Assembly: GCA_024643795.1 (NCBI GenBank) | Contig: JAHEMF010000027.1 | Span: 1 to 38,730 of the forward strand | Source of the DNA: Bacteroidota bacterium | GTDB taxonomy: Bacteria > Bacteroidota > Bacteroidia > AKYH767-A > OLB10 | Direction: 5' to 3' | DNA: 38,730 nt | Part shown: positions 1 to 9,382 of the stretch, one piece after another | Numbering within the stretch: the stretch's first letter is position 1 | Layout of the letters: the number at the start of each line of letters is the position of its first letter | Made by a program: the position numbers and the translations under genes | The notes under the pieces: generated by a model | Databases searched by the model: none | The model's input: the letters and a program-made list of their open reading frames with translations, nothing else | What the model was told of the DNA's origin: nothing

Positions 1-122
1 ATCACAGGATTGTACAGGTCTATCCTGTTAGAAGCATATTGCAGGTAATCAGTAATACCTTCTCTGAATACCGATGGAAACCAGGACTGGTCTTCAAATT
101 CAAATAAATGTAATCTTCTCAT
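1..122 (-). CDS. Partial N-terminus of methyltransferase-like protein
   Basis: An open frame begins with ATG at 122 on the minus strand and stays open for 40 codons to the window edge, so only the N-terminus is visible. It starts MRRLHLFEFEDQSWFPSVFR. The LHLFEFED-x-WFP opening resembles the start of a group of short bacterial proteins often annotated as class I SAM-dependent methyltransferases. The methyltransferase fold itself lies outside the window, so the function is an inference from that opening. A GGA sits a few bases before the ATG. It lies 161 bp downstream of the flavoprotein stop on the same strand and may belong to the same transcript; the gap shows no terminator. Confidence 0.55.
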   Translation of the reverse strand, partial: MRRLHLFEFEDQSWFPSVFREGITDYLQYASNRIDLYNPV

Positions 123-283
123 AATTCCAATCGTTTAGTGAACAGAAGCGCTTTTAAAGCCTCAGCTTCATGTAGATCAAGAAACGATCAAACGAGATGG
201 AAGTGTGATTACAGTGAACTGAAGTATGCCCGATGTAAGAAAATCAGGTTTTTGTTATCACTTTAAGAAGAAGGTTTGTTAAG

Positions 284-1789
284 TCAAATGTTATACTTGG
301 CCGGTGCAATAACATTGTTTGGATCGAAAACCTTTTTTATTTCGGCCAGTATATTGGAATAATCATCAGACCACGCCGGAAGCCTATCATACATACCGGG
401 ACCTGATCTATAGGGAATAAAACCATTTTGGATCAGCAATTTGGTGCATTCTTTTGAAAATGCCAACCCATTCTCTATGGATTCTTGCGACCTCTCATAT
501 GTTATGTTTGAGATCATTACTAATGAGCGGGGAGTAACAAATGTGAATGTGACTCTGAATTCATAACCATGTTTTGAAAACTGATTTTTCATCAATTCAA
601 GTAATCTTCCGGCATTTTTACCATCCCCTGAACAAACGGCATTTATCCAACTGAAACAGGTATCGTGACCAGATGCATTAAAGCTGTCTGAAGAGAGCTC
701 TGAGTTGTTCATCAGAGTTCGAAGAGGATTATCTGTTGGTTGTCCATTCAATAGATCAAAAATGTCGGTAAGGGGATCAAAGACCGGTAACCTGATAATA
801 TGTTTGTTTATGAATGCTAGCAAGTTCATCCTTTTGTGATCAAGAAAATGCAACTTGTAGCCCTTTACATGTTTGCGAAAAATAGTTTGTACAGCTTTCT
901 TCTTGGCGTAAACAACCGAGGATGGTCCTGTTATGGATCCACTTAAATTCCAGGCTCCAACAAATTTATTGTTACCTTCTCCAACGGCCCGTGATTTATT
1001 TGCAATATGAACAGCACTATTTACAACACCATTAAGTCGCATCTCCCTTACGGCATCAACAAGATTAGAAAAGTTATCCTCGTTTGAAGTTGATAGAACA
1101 AACATCTGCATGGCTTCAGGAACTGGCATCAACTCAATGGTTATTTCTGTGATTATACCGTAGTTCGATTGGGAGAACAAGCCATCAATCACAGGACCAA
1201 TGCCATAACGGTATACGTATTTTGCATTGGCATTTTCAAACCCTGAAAATCCTGTTCTAATGATCTGTCCAGATCCGGTGACAGCTGTCAATGCAATTAT
1301 TCTTCCAAACCTGTCGCCATAATCTGTATGACCAAATCCCCGCTCCAGAATATTACCTGTAATGCTTGCTGATAAACCGGCACCCGTAACATCAACCTGT
1401 AGCTTGATATTATTATTGATAAGATAACTGGATAGTTCTGTTTGTGCAACACCCGGTTCAATTCGGGCATATGCTAAAGTCTCATTTACTTCGATGATCT
1501 TATTCATCTGCTTCAGATCAATGATCACCTGGCCTGCTCTGGTACCTTGTGCCTGTCCGTATCCAAAATTCTTGCCTCTCGAAATAGGGTAGACCGCAAG
1601 AGCGTTAACATTTGCATATTTTATAAAGGATACCACATCAGATTCGCTCTGAGGCAGAAAAATACCTAAAGGCTTTACATCTGTTCCATTGAAACTGGAA
1701 GAGTACTTTAGTAATGTGGGTTCGTCAGTTAAGAATAACGCTTCTCCAAAAGTGGCAATTATGCGGGCTGAAGCGTTTTGTTCTTCCAT
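284..1789 (-). CDS. VAO/p-cresol methylhydroxylase-type FAD oxidoreductase
   Basis: A 501-residue soluble flavoprotein with the two-domain vanillyl-alcohol oxidase architecture. The N-terminal FAD-binding (PCMH) domain carries GRGKNFGYG near residue 70 and ERGFGHTDYGDRFG near 150, both close to the SIGKNFGYG and GVGYTPYGDH motifs of VAO and 4-cresol dehydrogenase. The C-terminal half ends with a family-like PYRSGPGMYDRLP stretch and FDPNNVIAPAKY. The family oxidises para-substituted phenols at the benzylic carbon through a quinone methide. The covalent FAD attachment residue was not identified. No signal peptide is seen. The start at 1789 overlaps the end of the FeeM-like gene by 31 bp, which implies co-transcription and possible translational coupling. 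The family is well supported; the substrate is unknown. Confidence 0.88.
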   Translation of the reverse strand: MEEQNASARIIATFGEALFLTDEPTLLKYSSSFNGTDVKPLGIFLPQSESDVVSFIKYANVNALAVYPISRGKNFGYGQAQGTRAGQVIIDLKQMNKIIEVNETLAYARIEPGVAQTELSSYLINNNIKLQVDVTGAGLSASITGNILERGFGHTDYGDRFGRIIALTAVTGSGQIIRTGFSGFENANAKYVYRYGIGPVIDGLFSQSNYGIITEITIELMPVPEAMQMFVLSTSNEDNFSNLVDAVREMRLNGVVNSAVHIANKSRAVGEGNNKFVGAWNLSGSITGPSSVVYAKKKAVQTIFRKHVKGYKLHFLDHKRMNLLAFINKHIIRLPVFDPLTDIFDLLNGQPTDNPLRTLMNNSELSSDSFNASGHDTCFSWINAVCSGDGKNAGRLLELMKNQFSKHGYEFRVTFTFVTPRSLVMISNITYERSQESIENGLAFSKECTKLLIQNGFIPYRSGPGMYDRLPAWSDDYSNILAEIKKVFDPNNVIAPAKYNI

Positions 1790-2454
1790 AGAGTCTGAAT
1801 GAAGTTCTCTACTGATACTCCAAATTCGTTTGGAGTTATAAAATTATTGGGATTGAATTGATACCTGTTTACAAAATCAAATTTAGCAGGATCGCCGTAT
1901 ATTTCAGAATTTATTTGCAATGAGTTTACATCCAGGTCTTTTCCATGTGCGTGAAGCAGGATAACAGGTGCAGTTCTGAGCTTTCCGTAATCTTTCACCT
2001 GTCCGAAAGGTTTGAATCCAAATACAGAGCTGAAGAAGTTAACCCTTCTAGGGTGCACCCCAACCACAAAGTCGTGGTGGTCACTGTAAACTCCAAACCT
2101 GGCTATTCCTGACATCAGGTCAACGATCTGATTCATTTTTGAAGCACCTCTTGCATCTGCCAGTAAGCCTATTTCTATCAGCTTACGACCTTCACCTCTT
2201 AGCGAGTTAAGTTCTTCAGAATAGTAATTATCAAGAGGAAGGCCCCTGTCGCTGTCTAATACAGCAGATACTGTACATACAGTACGCCCCATCTTCTTGC
2301 CAAGCAATACCGCAGTATTGTTGCTTATGTATTCAGGGAAAGTGAATACCGACATTTCATTGGGTGCGATAAGGGATGCTGCCAGATATTGGCGGTATAC
2401 CACGCACCAGGCGTCAATGACCTCAGAAATAGAGCTAGCTACTTTGTATTGCAT
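1759..2454 (-). CDS. FeeM-like N-acyl amino acid synthase (GNAT/LuxI-like fold)
   Basis: A 231-residue protein whose central and C-terminal parts match the FeeM-type acyltransferase pattern: EIGLLADARGASKMN near residue 94, GVHPRRVNFFSSVFGFKPFG near 132-152, and LRTAPVILLHAHG after it. FeeM enzymes resemble acyl-homoserine lactone synthases and transfer an acyl chain from acyl carrier protein to an amino acid amine; the founding member, from soil DNA, makes long-chain N-acyl-tyrosines. No acyl carrier protein gene is visible nearby, so a housekeeping ACP would have to supply the acyl group. This is the first gene of a unit with the flavoprotein, read from a promoter near 2694-2725 through a leader of about 230 nt. 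The amino acid and acyl specificity cannot be read from the sequence. Confidence 0.8.
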   Translation of the reverse strand: MQYKVASSISEVIDAWCVVYRQYLAASLIAPNEMSVFTFPEYISNNTAVLLGKKMGRTVCTVSAVLDSDRGLPLDNYYSEELNSLRGEGRKLIEIGLLADARGASKMNQIVDLMSGIARFGVYSDHHDFVVGVHPRRVNFFSSVFGFKPFGQVKDYGKLRTAPVILLHAHGKDLDVNSLQINSEIYGDPAKFDFVNRYQFNPNNFITPNEFGVSVENFIQTLWKNKTLQPA

Positions 2455-2586
2455 TTTGGTATATAGGTTTTAAAACTTTTGCCCGTCCATATAATGGATT
2501 AACGGTCAAATTTATTTCATTCACCCAATATATAGGGCCATTCGCCAAAATTTAACCAGTTTTTTTACACTTTCTTACAAAGGAGA

Positions 2587-2615
2587 CTGAAAGCCCCTGT
2601 TTATAGTGCTTTCAG
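2587..2615. promoter_or_regulatory. 8-bp inverted repeat in leader of FeeM-like operon
   Basis: CTGAAAGC (2587-2594) and GCTTTCAG (2608-2615) form a perfect 8-bp stem around a 13-nt loop. It lies inside the predicted leader of the FeeM-like operon, within a gene-free stretch from 2455 to 2864 that is otherwise A+T-rich. It could be an operator or an RNA hairpin. The minus-strand side is not followed by a long T run, so a simple terminator is unlikely. Confidence 0.4.
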
Positions 2616-2693
2616 CCGATTTGAGACCGATAATTTTTACTTTTATATAAAGATATTGTTAATATAAGACGATCTAATCAGTTGTTAGTCAGG

Positions 2694-2725
2694 CAAATAT
2701 ACAAAATAAAAAAGTTATTAACAAA
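2694..2725 (-). promoter_or_regulatory. Bacteroidota promoter for the FeeM-like operon
   Basis: On the minus strand there is TTTG (2722-2725), a 20-nt spacer, then TATATTTG (2694-2701). This fits the Bacteroidota primary-sigma consensus TTTG-N19-TAnnTTTG. Transcription would start near 2687, giving a leader of roughly 230 nt before the start codon at 2454. A second -7-like TAAATTTG at 2507-2514 has no good -33 partner. Confidence 0.55.
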
Positions 2726-3293: not shown

Positions 3294-4277
3294 TTATCGT
3301 GAATAAATTTCACTCAGTGAGATCATCTTCTCTTGTTCAGGATCCCAAACTTTCAATTTCAGGCAACTGATCACATCTTTAAGTTTGATAGAAGTACGTT
3401 TAGGATTCTGTAATTCCTTCATAGAGCTAAATGCTTCAGGTAATCTGTAAAAAGGAATCCTTGAATTTAAATGGTGAATATGGTGATACCCGATATTGGC
3501 AGTAACCCATGTCATGAATGGATCGAATTTCATGAAGCTTGACGACTGCAATGCAGCATAGGCGTAAGTCCAGCCATTTTTATCCTTAAATGTTACAGTT
3601 GGAAAGTTGTGTTGGGCATAAAAAAGGTACGATCCCAACGCACAACTTATCAGATTTGGGATCAGGAAAGCAAACAGCAATATTTTCCAGGAGAATAAAG
3701 TAACTATAAGGGCTGCAATTCCAAAATGTAAGATGATACTCACCAAAGAATCCCAATGCTTGGAAGGGTTCCTCACAAAAGAAAGTACAGCCATCCCGTA
3801 GAAAAAAACAAAGATGTATCCGAAAAGGATCGTCAAGGGATGTCTGATGAAGAGGTAATAAAACTTTTCTTTTGGAGAAAATTCAAGGTATCGTGATTTG
3901 GTAACAATGGGAAATGACCCTATACTGGATGTATATAGTTTGCTATTATTCTGATGATGATAGTCGTGTGATCGCCTCCAGATACTTACAGGAGCCAATA
4001 TGTACAATCCAAAAGATTTAAATATTAAATCAGCTACAATCGAATTTTGCAAGATCGCTTTATGGTTGTAATCATGATATATGATAAATAAACGAACAAC
4101 TAAAAGGCCAAGAAAAACTGAAGTTATCAATTGAAGCGGCCATGAGTTAATTGTGAGTATTATAATATAACTTGGAATAAAGAGTAAAAGTGTAAACCAA
4201 AGATGCTTCCAGCTTCTTACTCTATCCTCAGCAACAAACTCTTTTGTAGAAAGGATCAATTCTTTTTCACTCAACAT
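3294..4277 (-). CDS. Membrane fatty acid desaturase family protein
   Basis: A 327-residue integral membrane protein with the three histidine boxes that bind the di-iron centre of membrane desaturases: HDYNH at 68-72, HDYHH at 104-108, and HHIHH at 265-269. An extra AQHNFP sits near 221, a position where many desaturases carry another His. Hydrophobic segments at about 26-60, 145-170 and 182-220 fit the usual four-helix topology. It most likely introduces a double bond into membrane acyl chains; hydroxylase or carotenoid-type activity in the same superfamily cannot be excluded. It is the last gene of a minus-strand run, starting 19 bp after the LpxL-like acyltransferase stop, which suggests a shared role in acyl-chain remodelling. 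Confidence 0.88.
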   Translation of the reverse strand: MLSEKELILSTKEFVAEDRVRSWKHLWFTLLLFIPSYIIILTINSWPLQLITSVFLGLLVVRLFIIYHDYNHKAILQNSIVADLIFKSFGLYILAPVSIWRRSHDYHHQNNSKLYTSSIGSFPIVTKSRYLEFSPKEKFYYLFIRHPLTILFGYIFVFFYGMAVLSFVRNPSKHWDSLVSIILHFGIAALIVTLFSWKILLFAFLIPNLISCALGSYLFYAQHNFPTVTFKDKNGWTYAYAALQSSSFMKFDPFMTWVTANIGYHHIHHLNSRIPFYRLPEAFSSMKELQNPKRTSIKLKDVISCLKLKVWDPEQEKMISLSEIYSR

Positions 4278-4296
4278 GATGATCTTATTTTACTGG

Positions 4297-5187
4297 TTAC
4301 CCGGGGCGTTTGTGCTTCCATCTACGATGGGTCCAAAGCCATATTTCAGGTTGTGCAAAGATATCTTTTTCAAGCCTTTCAGTGTGTTTTGCGGTAATGG
4401 TGTACTCAGGCTCACTCTTTGGGTTGTCAGTAAGTAGTTCATAATCAATAGAATAAAATCCCCTTTGGATTCTTTTAACAGAAACATAAATAACCGGATA
4501 ATTCATTTTCCGGGCAATTTTTTCGGTACCCATGAATACCGGGGTGTCCTGATTCATGAAAGTAAGCCAATGTGCTCCCTTTAATGACGGGCTTTGATCG
4601 GCAATAAAAGCAGTAGCCGTTAATTTGTCACGATCATTGATCATTCCTCTCAAAGCATCTTTCATCGGATATAAATTATTTCCGAGCCGGGTGCGCATAT
4701 GATAGATCAGTTTTTCAAAAAACCTATTCGACAGAGGATGATAAATAACATAAAGTGAATGTAAGCCCTCAATTCCAAATCGCGCTCCGGCCAGTTCCCA
4801 GTTTCCCCAATGGCCCATCACTATTATTACACTTTTATGTTCTTCAACATACTTTTTGAAAAGTGCAGTGTTATCGAACGCCACATGCCTTTTGAGTTGT
4901 GATTTAGAAATGGTTAAGGTTTTTAAAGTTTCAAGTATCAGATCACAGAAATAGTGGTAAAACTTTTTAGTCAGTTGCAAAATTTCTATATCTGATTTTT
5001 CCGGAAATGAACGTTTCAGGTTATCTACAACTACCTTTTTACGGTATGAAAATAGTGAGTAGATGATAACGTACAGAATATCAGAAAAAATATATAGTAG
5101 CCTGAAAGGTAGTATTGAAATAAAATAAATAAATGGTAATATTAGAAGCAGAGGTAAATATTGAAGATCAGAAAATTTGATTTTCAT
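4297..5187 (-). CDS. LpxL/HtrB-type lipid A biosynthesis acyltransferase
   Basis: A 296-residue protein with an N-terminal membrane anchor (about residues 10-45) and the HX4E catalytic motif GHWGNWE, with H126 and E131. Other family-like features are an N-terminal RKKVVVDNLKRSFPE segment and a C-terminal WLWTHRRWKHK. The family transfers secondary acyl chains onto Kdo-lipid A or, in some bacteria, onto other lysolipids such as ornithine or aminolipids. I chose ATG 5187 (protein start MKIKFSDLQ), preceded by an AAGAGA-like purine run and 7 bp past the upstream stop. The longer frame from 5226 would overlap the MscS gene by 32 bp and adds residues that do not look like an acyltransferase start. 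It sits in the operon 9382-3294. Confidence 0.88.
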   Translation of the reverse strand: MKIKFSDLQYLPLLLILPFIYFISILPFRLLYIFSDILYVIIYSLFSYRKKVVVDNLKRSFPEKSDIEILQLTKKFYHYFCDLILETLKTLTISKSQLKRHVAFDNTALFKKYVEEHKSVIIVMGHWGNWELAGARFGIEGLHSLYVIYHPLSNRFFEKLIYHMRTRLGNNLYPMKDALRGMINDRDKLTATAFIADQSPSLKGAHWLTFMNQDTPVFMGTEKIARKMNYPVIYVSVKRIQRGFYSIDYELLTDNPKSEPEYTITAKHTERLEKDIFAQPEIWLWTHRRWKHKRPG

Positions 5188-5194
5188 ATTCTCT

Positions 5195-6892
5195 TCAATC
5201 TTTGGAAGGTGTTGTTGTATTATCAACCTTAAATGCCGGAGAATTGTAGTCTTTTGGCAGGTTAGTATCTGGAATGGCTATCTTGTTGCCGTCTCTTAAC
5301 GAGTTGTAATGTGGCGACATTATCTCAATACCCTTGGTATTAAAAACATCAAGTATATTCTTATGTAACTCAGAATATATAGCTCCTTGTTTGTTGGCCT
5401 GCTTTATGTATGCGTTGATCTGATATGAAACATAAAAATCATCCAAACTCATTTGATAGACAAAAGGTGCCGGATCTTTTAATATATGCTCAGTCCTTGA
5501 TGCGGCTTCAATCAATGATTCCTGAATATCCTTCCAAGGAACATCGTATCCTATGGTGATAGTGGAGTGTATTATAAGACCCTTTGATTCCGCTTCGCTG
5601 CTAAAGTTAACAGTGTGATTGCTCATCACCATCGAATTGGGAATTGAAACTATCTCATTTTTTATAGTTCTTATTCTGGTTACCAGCATATTTCTTTCTA
5701 CCACATCTCCTGTTTGATTTCCTATTGTTACCCTGTCGCCAAGTTTATAAAGTCTCATGTATGTCAGCACCAATCCCGATATAACATTGGAAAGTGCACC
5801 GGCTGAACCAAATGTTAACAGAAAACCAAGAAAAACAGAAACACCTTTAAAAATTGGGGAGTCACTACCAGGCAGGTAGGGGAAAATCACAACCAACATA
5901 AAAGCCAAAGTTAGTAGTCTGATTATTTGAAAAGTTGGATTAGCCCATTCTGGGTAAAATCCTGGAATGCTTAGCCTGTTGCGCTCAACTTCAACTTTTA
6001 AGAATCTAAGAAGTTTAATAAAGTATCTGAAAACAAATACAATTACTGCAATTGTAAAAATGTTAGGTAAATATTTCCAAAAAGCAGTTGCTATCTTCTT
6101 AAGAGGGTCCAAAATGAAACCCAGAAGAGTATCTGCCAATTTTTCAGTCCATGGAAAAATACTGAATAGAGCAGGTAATGAAATGTATATTGCCAGAATA
6201 ATAAATACCCATTTGATCACATTATTTAATCTTGTAAATAACCTTAACTCGCTCTTTACGTCATATAAAGTATAGTTTCGGATTTTTATCCCACTGATCA
6301 GTTTCCCTTCCTGCTCATATATCTTTTTTTCTGTCCAACTAAATAATTTACCTAATAATTTTATTATTCCAAAAAGTACGAATAAGACAAATAAACCAAT
6401 GCCGATCTTTTTGATCAATGAAATCCAGTTATGCCTCTCTTTGTAAGAGTCAATAGAAATGATGATTTTTTCAAGATATTCCTCAGATAATTGCTCTCTT
6501 GTAAGGTTTACTGCTCGTGCATCATATTCAGTGATACTTAGAATAACTTCGTCTTTATAATATATTTCAGAAGCCAGATCGTAATGCACAATAGATAAGG
6601 AGTCGGGAATAAAATTTATAACACTTGCAAGGGCATTTATACGCTGGCTGATTGCCTGCGCACGATGCTGTGGCGTAAATGCGCCAATCTTTAGATAGAT
6701 ATAAAATAATGTGTCATCATCAAAAGGTACTACCGCTGATTTATTTGCATTTAATTCTAAACTATCAAGTGCTTTGAAGTAAGAATTGTAGGCATTTAAT
6801 TCTAAGCTGTCACTTTGTGCAAATAACCTAACGGATGTGCAGACTAAAATGAGCATTGGTATTACTATTGCTAAGCCTGGCTTTTTAAACAT
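5195..6892 (-). CDS. MscS-family mechanosensitive channel, with signal peptide
   Basis: A 565-residue channel. Residues 1-25 form a signal peptide ending LFAQ, followed by an extracytoplasmic segment to about 150. Four or more transmembrane helices follow (about 158-180, 226-248, 278-300, 325-345), then the MscS pore helix and beta domain around 350-400, with GSAGALSNVISGLVLTYMRL and YKLGDRVTIG. A soluble alpha/beta vestibule and a polar Thr/Lys tail complete it. The family opens under membrane tension and releases solutes during osmotic downshock. The mature N-terminus repeats the DSLELNA sequence twice within about 20 residues, reflecting a short DNA repeat near 6750-6812. It begins 39 bp after the larger MscS paralogue stop, so the two are probably co-transcribed. 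Confidence 0.9.
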   Translation of the reverse strand: MFKKPGLAIVIPMLILVCTSVRLFAQSDSLELNAYNSYFKALDSLELNANKSAVVPFDDDTLFYIYLKIGAFTPQHRAQAISQRINALASVINFIPDSLSIVHYDLASEIYYKDEVILSITEYDARAVNLTREQLSEEYLEKIIISIDSYKERHNWISLIKKIGIGLFVLFVLFGIIKLLGKLFSWTEKKIYEQEGKLISGIKIRNYTLYDVKSELRLFTRLNNVIKWVFIILAIYISLPALFSIFPWTEKLADTLLGFILDPLKKIATAFWKYLPNIFTIAVIVFVFRYFIKLLRFLKVEVERNRLSIPGFYPEWANPTFQIIRLLTLAFMLVVIFPYLPGSDSPIFKGVSVFLGFLLTFGSAGALSNVISGLVLTYMRLYKLGDRVTIGNQTGDVVERNMLVTRIRTIKNEIVSIPNSMVMSNHTVNFSSEAESKGLIIHSTITIGYDVPWKDIQESLIEAASRTEHILKDPAPFVYQMSLDDFYVSYQINAYIKQANKQGAIYSELHKNILDVFNTKGIEIMSPHYNSLRDGNKIAIPDTNLPKDYNSPAFKVDNTTTPSKD

Positions 6893-6931
6893 GGGATATT
6901 TATTTAATATGGAATACTAAAGTGCACTAAT

Positions 6932-9382
6932 TTATTTTTTAAGATTTCCGACTATACTATCAAGGTTTTTGATATAAAGATCCCTTTGGGGAAATGGTAT
7001 TTCAATGTTTTTAATTTTCAATGCTTCAAATATACTCAGCAATACTTCACTGCGTATTCGCATCCATTGGTCATAATTATCTGTCCAAAAGAGTATTCTG
7101 AAATCTATTGAATGGTCATTTAATTTGTTCATTAGAATCAGCGGATTAGGATATTTGATCACATCCGAATGACCCTCGAGTGTATTTTTTATTACATCTT
7201 CAACAACTTTAAGGTCTGAGTCATACGCTACACCAATAATCAGCTCCATCCTTCTTTGTGGGTCAGAGCGTGTCCAGTTGATCACTTCTTTGGAAATGAG
7301 TTCGCCATTGGGAACAATTACTTCTGCGCCGTCAAAGGTTCTGATACTGCTGGTGCGTAACCCGATACTCTTAACTTTCCCAATAAGGTTTCCCACTTCA
7401 ACTGTATCATCTATCTGGACTGGTCTATCAAATAGTAATATCAAACCTGACACAAGATTATTGAAAATACTTTGAAGCCCGAATCCTATTCCAACGCCTA
7501 GTGCACCTATCAAAACGGTTAATTTGTCGAGGCTTATTCCAACTGCAGATATTGCTATCAAGACTCCGGTGGTTACAAGCAGGTACCTGGTGAGTGTACC
7601 TATGCTAAGTGCCAGGCCTCTTTTGACATTAAAATTGAACAAGATCCCGTCTTCAATAAATGTTTTGAGGACTTTTCCTGCCAATGCTGACAGATATACA
7701 ACAATAATGAACAATAAGATTGATCCAACAGAATATTCAAACTCGCCAATTGTTCGCACCTCCTCCAAAAAGTCTTCAAGTGCATTAAAAAACGAATCTT
7801 TCATATTGAAGACTTCCAATAAAGAATTGCACAGGAGTAAAAAAGTAAATACATATATAAGTTTGATGCTGAACCGGTATATCTCAGTGCTATTTGCTTT
7901 GAACAGGTGAATAGACATTATGGTTTTACTATACATGAATAATGTTAATAGTGCCTTCAGTATATTCATTGTAATGAAGAATAAAACAACTGCCATTACA
8001 AAACGGAGTGTACCAACACATAGCATCATGGAGAGCTCACCCGCCCCTGTAACATTTCCAATAATTGCAACTGATAAAGAAAGTATACATAACAATAAAC
8101 CTGCCTTAGCAAGAACTAATGAACCCGAAGAATTCTCTTGATCAGCTTTACCGACTTTTCTCAGAACAAGAAGCAAAATGTAAGCACTTAATACCGATAC
8201 AATAATAACCAGTATGCGAACCTGAATGCTTTGTTCAAGAGTCATACCCAACAATCTGGTAGCTAAGAATAGGCCGGTTAAATAATATGTATACTTCCTA
8301 GTAAGTTGGGGTATTATTATATGTATAAGAGGAATAATAGCTATAACGATAACCAGTATTACCAATTCCACGAATAGTAATGGAGCTGCATCATACAGAT
8401 ATAATGTGGAATAAGCTGACATAATTAACGCCAGAGGTACAGGGAATCGAAAAATTCTAATGACCTTTTCTGAGATAGGTTCTCCTGTATTTATATATTT
8501 TCTTGTTCTGAAATAAAGAAATATGAAAAAGATAAAAAAACCTATTATGAATGAAATATGTAATCGTATTTCATTTTTAAATTCTGTTGTGAATGTTTTG
8601 AAGGGTTCGATCTCATCACCAATAACACGGGAAACTTGCTTTACCAAACCAACAGATGATTTAGATATTTCGTTAAAATCCCATAAAGGAGGTAAGTTGG
8701 TTTGGATATTTCTAATGTTTTTTTCGGCCATCAAGGCATTGATCTTGCCAAGTTTATTTTTAGTTTCAATGGAGTAATTGATCAATTTGCTTTGTTGATC
8801 AAGAATAAATTTAATCTCAGCCGTTATTTCATTTAAAATACTATCTGCAATGGAATTTATATTAGTAAATTCTTCAGCTAAAACCGGATAAATATTGGAA
8901 GATCTTAAGGATTCATCAGTATTGATCCAGATGTCTTTGATCTTAATTACTTTTTTTTCCTTGTCGGTAAGGTCTTCAACATGTTTAGTTAATTTTTTTT
9001 CAGTTTCAGAAAGTTTTATGTCAACATGAATCCATAGTCTTTTTGAAGTTTCAAGTTCATGAATGCTCTTATATGTTGACAAGTCCTTGGCGGTTATCGC
9101 TAATTTAGATTCATACAAGCTGATTAGTGAATCAATGTTGATCATTATTAGCTTCATTTCGGCAGGTGGCAAAAATCCCTGTCGTATTTTTTGAAGGGCA
9201 TCTTTATCCTCTGCTGACCTTGATATTATTTCTGAAAGAGGAATGGTCTTTTTTAGTTCAAGGCTATCAATGACCTGTGAAGGTGTGCCAAGTTCAGCTT
9301 GTGCCTTTGACTGCAATGGTTGAAAAATGATCAATAAATAAAAGCAGATCAATAATGAAAATTTATTCAATAAATTATTCAT
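6932..9382 (-). CDS. Large MscK/MscM-like mechanosensitive channel
   Basis: An 816-residue protein larger than the basic MscS. A signal peptide ends near residue 28 (LQSKAQA). A Lys/Glu-rich helical, probably coiled-coil, periplasmic domain follows to about 270, then about ten hydrophobic helices. The canonical MscS core is GALGVGIGFGLQSIFNNLVS near residue 640, followed by DRPVQIDDTVEVG and IRTFDGAEVIVPNGELIS. It resembles E. coli MscK and YbdG/YjeP-type expanded channels. It is the first gene of the run MscS, MscS, LpxL-type acyltransferase, desaturase. No clear TTTG/TAnnTTTG promoter is seen in the 113 bp upstream. It shares little sequence with the downstream channel outside the pore domain, so the pair is not a recent duplication. 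Confidence 0.92.
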   Translation of the reverse strand: MNNLLNKFSLLICFYLLIIFQPLQSKAQAELGTPSQVIDSLELKKTIPLSEIISRSAEDKDALQKIRQGFLPPAEMKLIMINIDSLISLYESKLAITAKDLSTYKSIHELETSKRLWIHVDIKLSETEKKLTKHVEDLTDKEKKVIKIKDIWINTDESLRSSNIYPVLAEEFTNINSIADSILNEITAEIKFILDQQSKLINYSIETKNKLGKINALMAEKNIRNIQTNLPPLWDFNEISKSSVGLVKQVSRVIGDEIEPFKTFTTEFKNEIRLHISFIIGFFIFFIFLYFRTRKYINTGEPISEKVIRIFRFPVPLALIMSAYSTLYLYDAAPLLFVELVILVIVIAIIPLIHIIIPQLTRKYTYYLTGLFLATRLLGMTLEQSIQVRILVIIVSVLSAYILLLVLRKVGKADQENSSGSLVLAKAGLLLCILSLSVAIIGNVTGAGELSMMLCVGTLRFVMAVVLFFITMNILKALLTLFMYSKTIMSIHLFKANSTEIYRFSIKLIYVFTFLLLCNSLLEVFNMKDSFFNALEDFLEEVRTIGEFEYSVGSILLFIIVVYLSALAGKVLKTFIEDGILFNFNVKRGLALSIGTLTRYLLVTTGVLIAISAVGISLDKLTVLIGALGVGIGFGLQSIFNNLVSGLILLFDRPVQIDDTVEVGNLIGKVKSIGLRTSSIRTFDGAEVIVPNGELISKEVINWTRSDPQRRMELIIGVAYDSDLKVVEDVIKNTLEGHSDVIKYPNPLILMNKLNDHSIDFRILFWTDNYDQWMRIRSEVLLSIFEALKIKNIEIPFPQRDLYIKNLDSIVGNLKK

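Follow-up and report, generated by a model that had tools for sequence, protein, structure and literature searches.

What does a bacterium make when it ties an N-acyl amino acid synthase of the FeeM type to a flavoprotein of the vanillyl-alcohol oxidase/p-cresol methylhydroxylase (VAO/PCMH) family in two overlapping genes? The question is raised by the left end of a contig (JAHEMF010000027.1 of assembly GCA_024643795.1; G000:C36 in our numbering) from the 2.9-Mb, 99.8% complete genome of an uncultured Bacteroidota bacterium, where the minus strand carries a FeeM open reading frame (ORF), a flavoprotein ORF and then the truncated start of a methyltransferase gene. The entire contig, 38,730 bases, is the window analyzed here. 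A first-pass annotation had read these genes, behind a single promoter, as a route to a benzylically oxidized or dehydrogenated N-acyl-tyrosine that is perhaps then methylated, and knew of no such set described in Bacteroidota. We find that the identities of the genes, their conserved overlap, their strict co-occurrence and a conserved phenolate-binding cluster are directly supported. The best explanation of the locus is a two-gene biosynthetic module, usually joined by a third, tailoring gene, and we put the probability that an N-acyl-tyrosine or close analogue is made and then oxidized at its side chain at about 0.64.

Identity of the synthase and the flavoprotein

The first gene (1759..2454, minus strand) is a complete ORF of 231 amino acids (aa) that matches the Pfam FeeM family, PF21926, with 109.5 bits against a cut-off of 27 (E=1.8e-31), over profile positions 2-157 of 158. 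Its sole significant solved relative is FeeM itself (PDB 2g0b, E=3.4e-9), and homologues in three other genera are 65-75% identical to it. The PF21926 and 2g0b matches rule out an ordinary GNAT, as the FeeM-like call of the first-pass annotation implied. From family membership, the predicted product is an amino acid N-acylated from acyl carrier protein (acyl-ACP), with tyrosine as the probable acceptor.

The second gene (284..1789, minus strand) is likewise complete and encodes a 501-aa flavoprotein with a FAD_binding_4 domain (PF01565, E=1.7e-23), which places it among the VAO/PCMH flavoproteins. Its best solved relatives are vanillyl-alcohol dehydrogenase (VAD), p-cresol methylhydroxylase and eugenol oxidase (EUGO), with profile E values of 1e-73 to 1e-63, against only 1e-20 to 1e-10 for lactate, glycolate and sugar enzymes. 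The predicted structure agrees: Foldseek matched it to VAD at E=3.8e-32, and its VIA Z scores were 24.1 for EUGO and 23.7 for PCMH (427 residues aligned, root-mean-square deviation 4.0), compared to 19-21 for lactate-type enzymes. These scores, together with a residue comparison with a glycolate/lactate-type paralogue from the same genome (L080), rule out a lactate, glycolate or sugar oxidase, and the earlier assignment to the 4-phenol-oxidizing group holds. A cytochrome-coupled PCMH was also rejected, as no cytochrome subunit gene adjoins the pair, whereas one does at L044 and L045, which are loci of the PCMH type. O2 is therefore a plausible direct oxidant.

The active site of the flavoprotein

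In 4-phenol oxidases, two tyrosines and an arginine form a P-cluster described as indispensable to the binding of phenolate and as conserved throughout the group (PMC11148156); in VAO these are Tyr108, Tyr503 and Arg504 (PMC5646868). We mapped the active site in an alignment of eight sequences that included L046, a relative almost identical to eugenol oxidase that aligns without gaps to 5fxd. EUGO residues Y91, Y471 and R472 correspond to Y77, Y460 and R461 of the window protein, and the cluster is invariant in all four homologues. In a control relative adjoining glcF (L043) it is lost, Leu and Gly standing in for its two tyrosines, and both tyrosines and the arginine are missing from L080. 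Because this cluster is conserved, an N-acyl-tyrosine-like para-phenol is a well-supported candidate for the substrate, as judged from sequence.

Several points weigh against this interpretation. The structural model of the flavoprotein is mediocre (predicted local distance difference test, pLDDT, 64), its identity to bona fide 4-phenol oxidizers is just about 26-30%, and its cap domain aligns poorly with theirs. The catalytic Asp/Glu of the oxidases, at the position of VAO D170, is Gly136 in the window protein and Gly in 4/4 homologues. Nor are the residues for covalent flavin attachment conserved: across the four homologues the EUGO H390 position holds D, N, S or E and the PCMH Y384 position L, in a part of the alignment that is gapped. 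On the side of the synthase, FeeM-family enzymes also acylate arginine and tryptophan, and the sequence here does not reveal which acceptor is used. Finally, the likeness to the flavoenzymes FeeG and CndG, the precedents considered below, is one of reported chemistry, and membership of their family would be conjectural.

The two active-site departures have counterparts within the family. An acidic residue at the D170 position is a feature of the oxidases only, with Ala in PCMH and Thr in EUGH, and nsVAO binds FAD non-covalently (PMC7617285). The VAO/PCMH family thus tolerates loss of the catalytic Asp, as in PCMH, and of the covalent flavin link, as in nsVAO.

Overlap and co-occurrence of the pair

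The two genes overlap by 31 bp (1759..1789, minus strand), the 3' end of FeeM running into the 5' end of the flavoprotein gene, as the ORF coordinates give it and as had been noted before. FeeM occurs in 4 of 42 genomes of the order, the flavoprotein in the same four, and the remaining 38 have neither. These carriers represent four genera in two families, and in every one the genes are adjacent and overlapping, by 31, 34 and 31 bp in L007, L008 and L009, the loci of the other three. Relatives thus keep both genes together, as the first-pass annotation would have it. As the overlapping pair is present in all four genomes having either gene, it is not a product of chance, and the overlap probably serves translational coupling. 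The outer neighbors are unrelated in each carrier and presence is patchy; a small module gained or lost as a unit would fit this pattern.

FeeM is much better conserved among the four genomes than its partner, at 65-75% identity compared to 48-52%, and for this reason the flavoprotein may be evolving to suit differing acyl chains or acceptors. Synonymous sites in the pair are saturated, so that dN/dS carries no information here.

Beyond the order, the pair was found neither among 395 genomes drawn from the phylum nor among plasmid FeeM matches. The flavoprotein appeared in those 395 genomes only in the window's own, and within about 1.5 kb of the weak FeeM matches in the phylum there was no flavoprotein of this kind. 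One distant FeeM relative (L010:1-5930, G046:C84; 23% identity) lies beside beta-ketoacyl synthase, KAS III-like and short-chain dehydrogenase/reductase genes, a setting that resembles aryl-polyene or dialkylresorcinol clusters and in which an acylating role of this kind seems to be undescribed. The plasmid FeeM matches were three, all from Nitratidesulfovibrio vulgaris and annotated as ThiF proteins. The one examined (L047:3908-6877) is a natural FeeM-ThiF-nitroreductase fusion with XrtA/PEP-CTERM-associated genes on either side, a location that hints at chemistry on N-acyl amino acids close to an exosortase system.

The methyltransferase

At the contig edge, a gene for a class I S-adenosylmethionine-dependent methyltransferase starts with an ATG at 122, and its first 40 codons are present before the contig ends (1..122, minus strand; translation P0001). 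They are 83% identical to the N-terminus of a full methyltransferase in the same place in L007, in keeping with the methyltransferase-like start proposed earlier on this strand. The remainder was not found on searching the window's own assembly, in which the window starts at the contig edge, leaving no sequence further left for the search that the first-pass annotation had proposed. Full-length homologues are at L007:5070-5888, downstream of the FeeM-flavoprotein pair, and at L008:3018-3809. A methyltransferase follows the pair by 134-161 bp in three of the four genomes and is absent from the fourth; the spacer between flavoprotein and methyltransferase holds no clear conserved element. The structural model has a class I fold, its best matches being the aromatic C-methyltransferases NovO and CouO (Z 17.6, 12% identity).

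The family to which this gene belongs is present in 34/395 Bacteroidia genomes, widespread without FeeM and, where examined, in unrelated settings, so the methyltransferase is at most a recruited tailoring enzyme, and of all the parts it is the one whose role is least certain. L050-L066 carry Bacteroidia-wide class I methyltransferases of about 260 aa that start M(R/K)RxHLFEFEDxxWFP, contain a hydrophobic helical segment past their midpoint and occur as single genes in varied contexts. No characterized member of this family was found.

Proposed pathway and its alternatives

We propose a model where FeeM, as its family suggests, would take a long-chain acyl group off acyl-ACP and attach it to the amino nitrogen of tyrosine or of a comparable amino acid with a 4-hydroxyphenyl group. 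Going by fold and conserved active-site residues, the flavoprotein would then hold the phenol as phenolate through Y77, Y460 and R461 and pass the benzylic hydride to FAD, yielding a p-quinone methide. This intermediate may lose CO2, since the carboxylate is free, and re-aromatize to N-acyl-4-(2-aminovinyl)phenol (N-acyl dehydrotyramine), on the precedent of FeeG and CndG; it could alternatively tautomerize to N-acyl-dehydrotyrosine or add water to give a beta-hydroxy product. In a last and least certain step, the methyltransferase might add a methyl group to an oxygen or the ring of the product.

The precedents come from two FAD enzymes. FeeG, of soil-bacterial fee genes, is reported to convert N-acyl-tyrosines by oxidative decarboxylation to N-acyl-4-(2-aminovinyl)phenols (PMC8762209). 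The quinone methide formed by CndG on an acylated tyrosine reportedly loses CO2 to give dehydrotyramine, and dehydrotyrosine is expected only when the carboxylate is blocked (PMC3039461). This free-carboxylate chemistry leads us to rank N-acyl-4-(2-aminovinyl)phenol first, dehydrotyrosine second and beta-hydroxylation third, although by analogy oxidative decarboxylation as the specific outcome would be a tentative assignment, its odds somewhat below even. The benzylic oxidation or dehydrogenation of N-acyl-tyrosine put forward by the first-pass annotation therefore fares well as to the para-phenol substrate, through the conserved P-cluster, and less well as to the product, decarboxylation being at least as likely.

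Within the same general pathway, a different outcome would be desaturation of N-acyl-tyrosine to N-acyl-2,3-dehydrotyrosine, as in stieleriacines or thalassotalic acids, with the flavoenzyme in place of a nitroreductase like TyzC, and with O- or C-methylation of the ring by the methyltransferase to follow. The precursor and the type of partner enzyme would be shared, such lipids are known natural products, some of them methylated (PMC12479983), and the closest plasmid FeeM is fused to ThiF and nitroreductase domains while the window's own genome lacks such a partner. With a free carboxylate, however, CO2 and not the alpha proton should leave the quinone methide (PMC3039461), and the known desaturations are performed by nitroreductase-family, not VAO-family, enzymes. 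The NovO and CouO matches would suit methylation of an aromatic ring, but at 12% identity they leave the target atom unfixed; we consider dehydrotyrosine formation unlikely. Benzylic hydroxylation, in which the quinone methide takes up water to form N-acyl-beta-hydroxytyrosine, is the textbook reaction of PCMH-type enzymes, as of PCMH and VAO with simple alkylphenols, and the same phenolate cluster is found here. Yet the cytochrome c subunit gene adjoining L044 and L045 is not beside this pair, and Gly stands at the Asp170 position implicated in enantioselective hydroxylation by VAO (PMC5646868), making this outcome very improbable.

A broader departure would have FeeM acylate another amino acid or an amine and the flavoprotein oxidize something other than N-acyl-tyrosine, so that the overlap would be a sign of their joint regulation in some other lipid pathway. 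The members of PF21926 are diverse and the flavoprotein diverges in its cap domain, the seat of side-chain specificity. Against this stand an invariant phenolate cluster specific to phenol oxidizers and two genes that are never apart in the 42 genomes of the order. Such a pathway is conceivable but doubtful, and synthesis of an N-acyl-tyrosine followed by oxidation of its side chain is the interpretation we prefer.

Neighboring genes and expression signals

Just upstream of FeeM and on its strand, window positions 3294-5226 encode a fatty acid desaturase resembling DesA and an acyltransferase of the lipid A type, possibly connected with lipid supply; neither is kept beside FeeM in the relatives. 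Two consecutive large membrane proteins at 5195-9382 have the appearance of mechanosensitive-channel (MscS-like) proteins. A weak Bacteroidota-type promoter-like site (2694..2725, minus strand; TTTG-N20-TATATTTG) lies about 240 nt upstream of FeeM. It is the sole match in the window, but 1.7 are expected by chance, and scans for sigma-70 promoters and terminators stayed at chance level. The single promoter of the first-pass annotation thus has a possible site, though a weak one.

Comparison with known systems

FeeG and FeeM presumably come from one environmental DNA (eDNA) cluster, and both FeeG and CndG are presumably VAO-like. Like the locus described here, the fee system couples a FeeM-type synthase with a flavoenzyme, here a predicted one, that oxidizes the tyrosine side chain of the product (PMC8762209). 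Set against it, the present pair overlaps, usually has a methyltransferase behind it, belongs to a Bacteroidota host and is flanked by no other fee-like genes. In chondrochloren biosynthesis, CndG carries out FAD-dependent oxidative decarboxylation of an N-acylated tyrosine via a proposed quinone methide (PMC3039461); its substrate is nonribosomally made, whereas no polyketide synthase or nonribosomal peptide synthetase gene adjoins our pair. Because FeeG and CndG oxidatively decarboxylate N-acyl-tyrosines, the oxidation chemistry itself is probably not new, a precedent that the first-pass annotation had missed when it knew of no described system. For Bacteroidota its impression held, as we found no description of a FeeM synthase paired with a phenol-oxidizing flavoenzyme in this phylum, and a search of the open literature linked no N-acyl-tyrosine with a VAO/PCMH enzyme.

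Compared to the 4-phenol oxidizers VAO, EUGO, VAD, PCMH and nsVAO, the window protein shares the fold, the FAD_binding_4 domain and a complete Y-Y-R phenolate cluster. It departs from those compared in its 26-30% identity, the Gly in place of the catalytic Asp and a divergent cap domain. It also lacks the His or Tyr for covalent FAD, as nsVAO lacks the link, and its genetic partner is FeeM where theirs is a cytochrome c or an aldehyde dehydrogenase. It is tempting to speculate that the FeeM-4-phenol-oxidase-methyltransferase set is a Bacteroidota module not described before, acquired and lost in one piece, which yields a new class of methylated, side-chain-oxidized N-acyl-tyrosine (or N-acyl dehydrotyramine) lipids through a VAO/PCMH enzyme without covalent flavin link, acting on a long-chain lipid amide and outside the FeeG/CndG subfamily, but taken as a whole this would be a doubtful proposition.

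The oxidized N-acyl-tyrosine systems with described desaturases, oxz and tyz, and by comparative genomics the stieleriacines, use ThiF with a nitroreductase (PMC12479983, PMC10404671). They resemble the present locus in joining an N-acyl-tyrosine synthase to a flavoenzyme that oxidizes the tyrosyl moiety, and the N. vulgaris fusion, our closest plasmid FeeM, is of their kind. Here, by contrast, a VAO/PCMH-family protein takes the nitroreductase's place as the oxidizing flavoenzyme, and a ThiF cyclase is missing: no such partner lies at the locus, and the FeeM-ThiF-nitroreductase fusion, searched against the window's own genome, matched in its FeeM part only. Producers of N-acyl-tyrosines have been reported from Pseudomonadota, Actinomycetota and Planctomycetota (PMC12479983); to these the present locus would add a fourth phylum, in which the predicted pathway is compact. 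The three-gene set could be cloned whole from a relative and may show what a VAO-family enzyme does with a quinone methide when the tyrosine is joined to a lipid, as well as offering a route to the molecules that these uncultured bacteria make. What looks new, beside the known systems, is that the set occurs in Bacteroidota, that its two genes overlap in a module with a methyltransferase, and that this synthase is paired with a 4-phenol oxidase where oxz, tyz and the stieleriacine systems employ ThiF and a nitroreductase.

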